Positions 30,464 through 47,156 of a stretch of DNA of 64,000 nt are shown piece by piece (position 1 is the first letter of the stretch; each line of letters starts with the position of its first letter). The notes below the pieces were generated by a model, which was given only the letters and a program-made list of their open reading frames with translations, had not been told where the DNA came from and ran no database searches. The position numbers and the translations under genes were made by a program. The stretch spans positions 19,850 through 83,849 of the forward strand of contig JAGCGK010000120.1 of NCBI GenBank assembly GCA_017649645.1. The letters run 5' to 3'. The DNA is from Clostridiales bacterium (lineage in GTDB: Bacteria > Bacillota > Clostridia > Saccharofermentanales > Saccharofermentanaceae).

Positions 30464-30492
30464 TTGACTTGAAAAGAAATAGGGTTTAAAAC
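30464..30492 (+). promoter_or_regulatory. Promoter of the mgtE leader transcript
   Basis: TTGACT (30464-30469) and TAAAAC (30487-30492) are 17 bases apart. This places the transcript start just before the leader peptide's ribosome site. Confidence 0.5.
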
Positions 30493-30524
30493 ATACTTAG
30501 TTTTTGAAATGGGAGGTGATCGTC

Positions 30525-30608
30525 ATGGATGCTGACAGTTATTACCGAAGTACGAACTGCTGCGACCTTGCATCATATGATCTCACCTTCTGTAACGATC
30601 GGGCTTGA
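30525..30608 (+). CDS. mgtE leader peptide
   Basis: This 27-codon frame begins MDADSYYRSTNCC and ends at TGA. It is preceded by GGGAGGTGAT at 30511-30520, one of the best anti-16S matches in the window, four bases from the ATG. It lies between a promoter and an intrinsic terminator upstream of the magnesium transporter gene. The acidic N-terminus, paired Tyr and paired Cys could influence ribosome progression, as in Mg-responsive MgtL leaders of enterobacteria. No sequence homology to MgtL is claimed. Control by attenuation is inferred. Confidence 0.6.
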   Translation: MDADSYYRSTNCCDLASYDLTFCNDRA

Positions 30609-30641
30609 TCTGATCGGACAGATTTCCTGTCATCCTGTGAT

Positions 30642-30666
30642 GCATCGCCGTACGCGGTGCTTTTTT
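30642..30666 (+). terminator. Attenuator terminator in front of mgtE
   Basis: GCATCGC pairs with GCGGTGC (one wobble pair) around a CGTAC loop, followed by TTTTTTATTTT. It ends 26 bases before the mgtE ATG. In between is the AAGGAG ribosome site, so full-length message requires read-through. CTGTCATCC at 30627-30635 can pair with the start region of the leader frame (TGACAG plus GGA), giving a possible alternative fold. Confidence 0.75.
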
Positions 30667-30691
30667 ATTTTAGAGAAGGAGACAAGAGATC

Positions 30692-32077
30692 ATGGAACCA
30701 AATGTACTCAAAGAGCCGAATTTTGTAGAGGAGATCCTCGCCATATTCAGAAGCGACATTTCGCCTGCTGAATTAAACGAGAAGATCTCGGATTACCACG
30801 AAAACGATATAGCAGGCGCACTCGAGCAGATGACTCCGGAGGAGCGTCAGAAGGTCTACCCTATACTCGGTGCCGAGAAGGTATCAGAGATCTTCACTTA
30901 TATTGAGGACGTAGACAAATACATCGGCGAACTTAATATCGAGAAGGCCGCGAAGGTCATCTCCCACATGGACTCAGATGACGCCGTTGACGTTCTCGAG
31001 GAAATGGATGATTCGACTTCCGAGAAGATCATGAGCATGCTCGAGGAAGATTCCGGAAGAGACGTCCGACTGATCCTGTCATATGATGATGATGAGATCG
31101 GCAGTAAGATGACTACCAATCTCATCGTTATCAAGAACGATCTGAACATAAGATCCGCCATGAGAGAACTCGTTAAGCAGGCGGGCGACAATGACAACAT
31201 CTATACGATCTATGTCGTGGACGAAGAAGAAAAATTCTACGGAGCTATCGATCTTAAAGACCTTATCGTAGCAAGATCCGAGACGCCTCTCGAAGACCTG
31301 ATCGTTACATCTTACCCGTATGTCGGCGATCACGAACACATAAGCGACTGTATCGAGAGGATCAAGGAATACGCCGAGGATTCCATTCCGGTTTTGTCGG
31401 ATGACAAGAAGATAGTCGGTATCATCACATCTCAGGATATTGTAGAAGTTGTCGATGATGAGCTCGGTGATGACTACGCTAAGCTCGCAGGTCTTACCGC
31501 AGAGGAGGATCTGAACGAGAAGACGAACGAGAGCATGAAGAAAAGACTTCCATGGCTCATCATCCTTTTGATGCTGGGAATCGTTGTGTCCACAGTCGTG
31601 GGTGTTTTCGAGAAGGTCGTAGCAGCGATACCTATCGTAATATGCTTCCAGTCACTGATACTCGATATGGCAGGTAATGCGGGAACGCAGTCGCTCGCTG
31701 TTACCATCAGAGTACTGATGGACGAGACGCTTACCGCCAGACAAAAGATCGGCCTCGCATTCAAAGAGATGCGCGTGGGTCTTTGTAACGGATTGTTCCT
31801 GGGAAGCGCGGCACTTCTGGTCATCGGCGCGTACTTAAAGTTCATCAAGAGTGATACGCTTTCACACTCGCTTCTGATCGCAGTGTGTGTCGGAGGCGCA
31901 CTGGTCCTCTCGATGATCATATCAAGCCTTCTCGGAACTTTGATCCCGATGTTCTTCCACAAGATCAAGATCGATCCGGCCGTAGCATCAGGTCCGCTGA
32001 TCACGACAGTAAACGATCTTGTAGCAGTCGTTGCATATTATGGTCTTGTGTGGCTGATAATCCTGCCTTTAATGTAA
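30692..32077 (+). CDS. mgtE: Magnesium transporter MgtE
   Basis: This 461-residue transporter is full length for the family. Residues 1-130 form the superhelical MgtE N-domain, with the HMDSDDAVDVLEEMD and DDEIGSKMTTN signatures. Two CBS domains span about 140-260. Five membrane spans follow, with the selectivity-region AGNAGTQSLAV and the terminal NDLVA. MgtE is a Mg-gated channel whose cytoplasmic domains close it at high internal magnesium. The leader peptide and terminator upstream suggest that transcription too responds to Mg or translation state. Confidence 0.95.
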   Translation: MEPNVLKEPNFVEEILAIFRSDISPAELNEKISDYHENDIAGALEQMTPEERQKVYPILGAEKVSEIFTYIEDVDKYIGELNIEKAAKVISHMDSDDAVDVLEEMDDSTSEKIMSMLEEDSGRDVRLILSYDDDEIGSKMTTNLIVIKNDLNIRSAMRELVKQAGDNDNIYTIYVVDEEEKFYGAIDLKDLIVARSETPLEDLIVTSYPYVGDHEHISDCIERIKEYAEDSIPVLSDDKKIVGIITSQDIVEVVDDELGDDYAKLAGLTAEEDLNEKTNESMKKRLPWLIILLMLGIVVSTVVGVFEKVVAAIPIVICFQSLILDMAGNAGTQSLAVTIRVLMDETLTARQKIGLAFKEMRVGLCNGLFLGSAALLVIGAYLKFIKSDTLSHSLLIAVCVGGALVLSMIISSLLGTLIPMFFHKIKIDPAVASGPLITTVNDLVAVVAYYGLVWLIILPLM

Positions 32078-47087: not shown

Positions 47088-47156
47088 AGGAAGCATAGTG
47101 CTTCTTGGGCTGGTCGTAAGACCCAGGTCCATCTGCTGGCGGGGAAGTTCCTCGCC
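47088..47156 (+). ncRNA. Structured leader RNA of the DUF3800 gene
   Basis: Three consecutive hairpins fill the leader. The first is GAAGCA/TGCTTC with loop TAG (47090-47104). The second is CTGGTC/GACCCAG with a GTAA tetraloop and bulged C (47110-47126). The third is GGCGGGGA/TCCTCGCC with loop AGT (47138-47156). They lie between a strong promoter and the ribosome site. Conserved RNA motifs upstream of DUF3800 genes have been catalogued in comparative surveys. I cannot say which, if any, this matches. Confidence 0.6.

Follow-up and report, generated by a model that had tools for sequence, protein, structure and literature searches.

A probable MgtL-like, ribosome-mediated attenuator upstream of the Mg2+ transporter gene mgtE in Clostridia

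Among Gram-positive bacteria, mgtE is known for the M-box, and leader-peptide translational sensing of Mg2+ is, to our knowledge, established for enterobacterial mgtA only. The enterobacterial MgtL leader peptide contains a PLP motif. Translation attenuators of the ermC/cat type take a drug as their signal, and a stall early in their short leader sets an RNA segment free. Extracts of the published work describe E. coli ribosomes leaving MgtL at its EPDP motif under low Mg2+, and pausing or dissociation of ribosomes caused by acidic residues early in the chain (PMC11282234). Extracts on Salmonella mgtCBR describe leader ORFs (mgtM and mgtP, in tandem) and alternative stem-loops before Mg2+ genes, with ATP and proline as signals and no intrinsic terminator (PMC3641672). 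The M-box (ykoK, RF00380) controls an MgtE-type transporter in Bacillus subtilis, and in mycobacteria an M-box controls a conserved small uORF of a Mg2+-responsive leader, with the aptamer sensing Mg2+ (extract of PMC12810186). The mgtE motif, a candidate cis-regulator 5' of mgtE in Thioalkalivibrio, is described as a riboswitch candidate confined to one genus, and the extract of PMC11109978 names no leader ORF for it. In the open-licence PMC literature searched, including extracts of PMC11109978, PMC11282234, PMC3641672, PMC12810186, PMC8336468 and PMC11611912, we found no description of a clostridial mgtE leader peptide.

Here we analyse the mgtE leader of a clostridial window (the whole stretch of DNA under analysis, 64,000 nucleotides). 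It resembles the Salmonella leaders in combining a leader ORF with alternative stem-loops before an Mg2+ gene, the mycobacterial one in its conserved small uORF, and the B. subtilis and Thioalkalivibrio elements in the gene that it precedes. It differs from the Salmonella system by its intrinsic terminator, and from the M-box systems in that neither a match to RF00380 nor such an aptamer was found at the leader. It shares with ermC/cat-type attenuators the proposed release of an RNA segment by an early stall; in those the hidden start is that of the resistance gene, whereas in the window the leader's own start appears to be hidden as well.

All elements of the locus lie on the + strand. A possible sigma-70-type promoter at 30464-30492 combines a -35 element TTGACT (30464-30469) and a -10 element TAAAAC (30487-30492) with a 17-nt spacer. 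These elements fit the promoter proposed in the initial annotation, and TAAAACATA recurs in the near relatives L002 and L003, and as the variant TAAAACTTA in L004, but a promoter consensus scan of this region returned only a weak, shifted site (9/12). Downstream lie the leader-frame ribosome site GGGAGGTGAT (30511-30520), with similar sites in relatives, and a leader ORF of 27 codons plus a stop (30525-30608; ATG at 30525, stop codon at 30606-30608) encoding the peptide MDADSYYRSTNCCDLASYDLTFCNDRA. Comparison of leaders marks codons 1-9 (30525-30551) as a conserved block, M-D-x-D-S-x-Y-R-S, containing GACAGT and CGAAGT. A hairpin predicted from folds spans the leader stop codon (30596-30616), between leader and terminator. 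An intrinsic terminator, evident from the sequence and a terminator scan, occupies 30642-30671; its stem (30642-30660) is followed by TTTTTTATTTT, the U-tract extending to 30671. The mgtE ribosome site GAAGGAGA (30675-30682) precedes the ATG at 30692 of mgtE (30692-32077), which encodes a Mg2+ transporter of 461 aa, assigned as MgtE by Pfam (MgtE, MgtE_N, CBS) and by NCBIfam TIGR00400 above its cut-off. The strong ribosome site, the 27-codon frame, the hairpin and the mgtE ribosome site that had been pointed out initially can all be read directly from the sequence. The leader RNA folds better than shuffled versions of itself (z -2.7), with 2 of 200 shuffles folding equally well.

An Rfam search of the leader region matched no family; when 421 bases were searched with a relaxed threshold, three matches appeared, all far below the cut-offs. 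The same search of 12 related loci gave no match. M-box RF00380 was absent from 35/35 genomes of the genus (Infernal, stricter filters), and was present in 3 of 59 relatives, all three belonging to one other genus. The covariance search agrees with the earlier remark that M-box conserved blocks could not be recognised here. An M-box or another Rfam family was rejected as a candidate; the window's single above-threshold match lies elsewhere, at 47106-47153 (+ strand), and is a DUF3800-XI RNA (RF02975, E 4.2e-12).

Comparison with relatives confirmed that the mgtE leader in the window is real and conserved beyond chance, since the same leader occurs in relatives, many of them bacteria of the gut and rumen, its reading frame is under selection and its RNA covaries. 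The consensus before mgtE in relatives is M/V-D-x-(x)-D-S-...-R-S. Relatives carry MDPDSTYRSSN (L002), MEADSHYRSSN (L003), MDGDSHYRS (L004) and MDSDSHYRSSN (L005); further leaders read MDGCDSKGRSSN (L006) and VDAGDSCDKRGKR (L010 and others), MDSCSSFGRS in Ruminococcus sp. FMBCY1 (L053), MDSCDSTGRS in a Lachnospiraceae MAG (L058), MDGCDSYGQR in Lachnospiraceae bacterium COE1 (L067), MDKSDSHGR in Pseudobutyrivibrio MAGs (L089, L090) and MDGCEQRSIYGWR in Bulleidia extructa (L059). A regular expression found the leader in 99 of 166 mgtE upstream regions, a count that is descriptive and not a test because the expression was partly hand-fitted and extended by eye; the 166 regions exclude loci L031-L046 and 13 repeats, and two spurious matches (L050 -414 and L194 -228) were removed. 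Discarding 37 leaders that were at least 85% identical to a kept one left 62 non-redundant leaders. The expression had no match in 17 Bacillus-like loci (L110-L126). Both the frame and its ribosome site are kept in relatives, as the initial annotation would lead one to expect. As to the peptide features that it had singled out, the acidic start is kept, the paired Cys is not conserved, and Tyr-Arg-Ser is conserved in the closest relatives. A separate leader type, MDS[HS]PEPGSC, lies before mgtE in L186, L187, L188 and L194 (family f2 of the order); it contains a PEP motif and its ribosome site is strong.

Folds and covariation point to a helix, P1, in which the leader SD, spacer and start codon (segment 1, 30509-30532) pair with 30570-30593 inside the leader ORF. 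It had been suggested that the start of the frame pairs with CTGTCATCC (30627-30635); such a helix can be drawn, but relatives conserve the P1 3' strand as the partner. As partner of the spacer and start, a leader's own 3' part was in the best 5% for 31 of 62 leaders, compared with 5 of 62 for an upstream control. The 3' arms of individual leaders are best duplexes, to be taken as candidate helices. Each leader supplies a distant partner that fits its own, unconserved P1 spacer. Pairing between the leader SD and the terminator arm, suggested by the VDAGDSCDKR group, proved unspecific (4/52 in the best 5%) and was dropped.

Pairing tests and folding further predict an antiterminator. Its 5' strand (segment 2, 30562-30577) comprises leader codons 13-18 and overlaps the P1 3' strand, and its 3' strand (segment 3, 30636-30648) overlaps the terminator 5' strand; in the window, 30562-30565 would pair with 30645-30648 and 30569-30577 with 30636-30644, in competition with the terminator. 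When own pairing was ranked against that with others' segments, 12 of 52 leaders fell in the best 5% (p 5e-5 in a rank test whose cells are not independent), an earlier segment choice having given 9/52 before the segment was moved. The 52 leaders remained after seven of f2/f3 type (L181, L183-L187, L194) and then three with too little downstream sequence were taken out. Segment 2:3 pairing is extensive in the window's group (L001-L005, L163-L165), and many Lachnospiraceae-type leaders rank poorly. The window's group thus has mutually exclusive segments 1:2, 2:3 and 3:4 together with an intrinsic terminator. Terminator-like hairpins were seen in 35 of the 62 leaders by a crude scan in which some are doubtful; in L009, L152 and L159, which show no terminator, a hairpin seems on inspection by eye to cover the mgtE ribosome site. 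Pairing tests also indicate a helix, P3, between the bases directly 5' of the terminator (30621-30636), an anti-SD of mgtE, and 30677-30691, which includes part of the mgtE ribosome site. The own partner was best in 5 of 9 leaders and first or second in 7 of 9, the window's own being fourth of nine. Read-through RNA may still be caged at the mgtE ribosome site by P3.

We propose that the leader is probably a ribosome-mediated, MgtL-like attenuator of mgtE. The leader mRNA would start about a dozen bases 5' of the strong ribosome site, and a ribosome would load while the 3' part of the leader is still to be transcribed. If this ribosome pauses or drops off in the conserved early codons (acid at 2 and 4, then the rare codon CGA, and AGT), the leader start could not pair with segment 2; the freed segment 2 would capture the terminator 5' strand (2:3), transcription would continue and mgtE would be ON. 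Translation on through codons 13-20 would cover segment 2, allowing the terminator (3:4) to form and P3 to cage the mgtE ribosome site, the OFF state. A leader free of ribosomes would hide its start in P1 and form the terminator: also OFF. Because P1 would restrict any later loading as well, the outcome may hang on the first ribosome. By analogy with enterobacterial MgtL, the signal that arrests or destabilises the ribosome on the early codons is likely to be low Mg2+. We infer Mg2+ as the signal, pause versus drop-off, the codon of the halt, one-shot loading and the transcription start; comparison supports the link to mgtE, a peptide selected as coding, its biased codons, and three pairings, namely P1, P3 and, for the window's group, segment 2:3. 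The comparative data support what the initial annotation had inferred, translational attenuation of mgtE in a clostridial genome by an element of an unfamiliar type. The attenuator stands, with corrections to its mechanism: the leader start would be hidden by the leader's own 3' part, codons 13-18 with 30636-30648 would be the antiterminator, and the output would comprise caging of the mgtE ribosome site in addition to the terminator.

Eight leaders from the window's group, among them the window's own, were folded with ribosome footprints kept unpaired. With codon 4 in the P site, the antiterminator prevailed in 8/8 before the terminator was made and was dominant in 7/8 thereafter, L165 keeping its terminator. 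With codon 7 in the P site, the antiterminator formed in 8/8 before completion and in 3/8 after it, the model letting P1 close around the ribosome. At codon 14 the antiterminator was absent in 8/8 and the terminator formed (weakly in L003), and at codon 19 the terminator was present in 6/8 (weak in L003, and only 0.4 pairs in the window). In the full leader free of ribosomes, P1 and the terminator dominated in 6/8, L003 and L163 keeping the antiterminator; with the terminator incomplete, the antiterminator prevailed in 7/8 (about even with P1 in the window), so the ribosome-free OFF state rests on P1 forming first or on refolding. Taken together, the models favour the following: 1) a halt in the conserved block gives ON; 2) running on gives OFF; and 3) no ribosome gives OFF at equilibrium.

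Such a switch would be a new form of leader-peptide attenuation that probably works like MgtL, without being an MgtL member by output mechanism. Both have a short leader ORF before a Mg2+ transporter gene, and in both early ribosome failure is expected to mean ON. The acids at 2 and 4 in the window's group correspond to Glu2 and Asp4 of MgtL, within its EPDP motif (extract of PMC11282234). The gene and the output differ: mgtA encodes a P-type ATPase and is controlled by a Rho-dependent terminator, whereas the present gene encodes MgtE and has an intrinsic terminator and a putatively caged mgtE ribosome site. Sequestration of the leader start by the leader's own 3' part and the CGA-AGT block are further differences of the clostridial leader.

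The folding logic depends on ribosome position only, which would suit a general sensor of translation status, in which any slowing of early elongation (by drugs, ribosome shortage or a missing rescue factor) turns mgtE ON and Mg2+ is one cause among others. MgtL itself is described, in extracts of the respective articles, as affected by proline supply (PMC3641672), by EttA (PMC11282234) and, per the authors, by EF-P or EfpL (PMC11611912). We consider this reading unlikely, since an association with mgtE as tight as this argues that Mg2+ is the signal that was selected. The link was seen with R1, a sequence-only model trained on D5-type leaders (D at 5) and searched against 391 genomes of the class in full, irrespective of where mgtE lies. 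R1 had matches in 20 genomes at E up to 0.01; those with E <1e-4 lay before mgtE in 10/10 cases (tblastn with the window's MgtE), and all 20 divided into 13 before mgtE and 7 elsewhere, each of the latter with E >8e-4. Its D5-type training set explains why R1 missed the window's own leader. A pattern search had matches in 15 of 59 genomes, and the reversed control pattern gave three.

Next, we considered the codons of the conserved block. In the non-redundant set of 62, CGA encodes 39 of the 44 conserved Arg residues; beyond codon 12 these leaders use it for 8 of 66 Arg, and 47 long ORFs of the window use it for 5.8% of theirs. Similarly, AGT encodes 38 of the 47 Ser residues of D-S, compared with 12 of 97 Ser beyond codon 12 and 16% of Ser in the 47 ORFs. 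Both CGA and AGT are decoded via weak wobble pairs (inosine-A and G-U), which suggests that slow decoding may be part of the leader design. Nearly fixed rare Arg CGA and Ser AGT, together with segments that exclude one another in trp-type fashion, could also indicate a classical amino-acid attenuator sensing the charging of tRNA-Arg (CGA) or tRNA-Ser, with mgtE regulated by amino-acid starvation. However, the block contains a single Arg codon and lacks a run of regulatory codons, a Mg2+ transporter gene lies downstream of every one of the ten best-supported R1 matches, and other members of the class have PLP yet retain the acidic second residue. Regulation of this type is therefore quite improbable.

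Selection on the frame is evident from pN/pS, given here as pairwise counts uncorrected for phylogeny. In the eight leaders of the window's group it is 0.33 for codons 2-9 (1.21 and 1.60 in the other frames) and 1.05 for codons 10-20; in 16 distinct leaders of VDAGDSCDKR type it is 0.26 for codons 2-13 (1.22 and 0.66 in the other frames) and 0.87 for codons 14-22. These low values, found early and in the reading frame only, indicate that the first nine to thirteen residues are under peptide selection, which then fades. The Mg2+ transporter gene is thus preceded, in its 5' leader, by a short ORF whose translation is implied by this selection. Of 27 occurrences of CGAAGT, 25 keep the frame of the leader start, at offsets of +18, +21, +24 or +33, and the two that do not are a second start in L004 and L166. 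These data bear on whether the leader is a metal- or metabolite-binding riboswitch, in which the conserved loop (GACAGT...CGAAGT) only looks coding and the ORF is incidental. Nucleotide conservation of CGA and AGT exceeds amino-acid need, and P1 could be read as a covarying stem around a conserved loop. Nevertheless, a riboswitch is distinctly improbable: CGAAGT stays in frame though its spacing shifts in steps of three, low pN/pS is confined to the reading frame, TCN codons replace the Ser AGT in 8/47 leaders, the SD and start are conserved, and Rfam matches nothing in the window's leader or the 12 related loci. A short functional protein beside mgtE without cis regulation would account for the conserved N-terminal peptide, but it is very hard to credit, as selection fades after about codon 9-13 whereas the 3' part retains RNA complementarity, and no Pfam or NCBIfam family was found in five leaders scanned.

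To return to the MgtL-like attenuator, its spread was assessed in 60 further mgtE regions of the class, picked along the match list with same-genus rows skipped. A strict window-type peptide motif was rejected as a class-wide rule, being hardly enriched (3/115 small frames, 1/37 antisense, 9/1982 shuffled). A small SD-preceded frame with an acidic second residue was present in 30 of the 60 regions, compared with 2 of 27 trkH regions (the best-scoring 30 loci, less 3 clipped by contig ends). Counted per frame, acid at position 2 occurred in 41/114 before mgtE, 2/25 before trkH (Fisher p 0.004) and 1/36 antisense, in a test chosen after the strict-motif result had been seen. Some of the 41 frames are un-leader-like (e.g. 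L226, L234 -578, L242 -437, L250 -499, L251 -144, the overlapping frames of L262 and L264 -551). The 41 pair with their own 3' part at a median z of -2.1, compared with -0.15 in the other 73 (p 2.8e-7). An early in-frame CGA AGT is found in 7 of the 41 (e.g. L219, L222, L239, L245). PLP within the first ten residues, soon after the acid and reminiscent of MgtL, is found in 9 of them, examples being VDPVPLP (L228, L233), MDSGPLP (L238) and MDSDPLP (L253). The window's leader has D2 and D4 and no proline.

These patterns lead us to suggest, tentatively, that Clostridia as a class measure Mg2+ by the ribosome. Their mgtE leaders would carry an early hard-to-translate block, composed of an acid at position 2 and, in addition, PLP or the weak-wobble codons CGA-AGT, and ribosomes would get past it or not according to Mg2+. 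As the leader conceals its start, each transcript would be read about once; enterobacterial MgtL would be a distant or convergent case of a widespread sensor. If a conserved mgtE leader-peptide switch operates in many Clostridia, ribosome fragility at low Mg2+ would be a widely used sensor. The leaders would also constitute a natural experiment, in which early codons are nearly fixed (acid at 2, CGA-AGT or PLP) and RNA arms drift yet match, so that the question of what makes a ribosome Mg2+-sensitive could be tested directly.

Several single loci deserve mention. L228, L233, L235 and L238 have tandem frames, one beginning MESG or MECG far upstream (about -440 to -520 from the mgtE match) and a PLP frame close by (about -110); as with the tandem leader ORFs mgtM and mgtP in the extract on Salmonella, they are possibly tandem attenuators. 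The leader of L166 (MDSCDSIGEVPEPV...) keeps CGAAGT out of frame, by a natural frameshift or an assembly error. In L215 (G415), a frame MDSSDGNPLRR... lies about 180 bases before a corA-like gene (by eye), with an R1 match near chance (E 0.0096) and a terminator-like hairpin inside the frame. In L207, the R1 match (E 0.0013) falls on the N-terminus, MDSDSMGQ, of a CorC/CNNM-like membrane protein (by eye), again a Mg-related gene and perhaps a coincidence.
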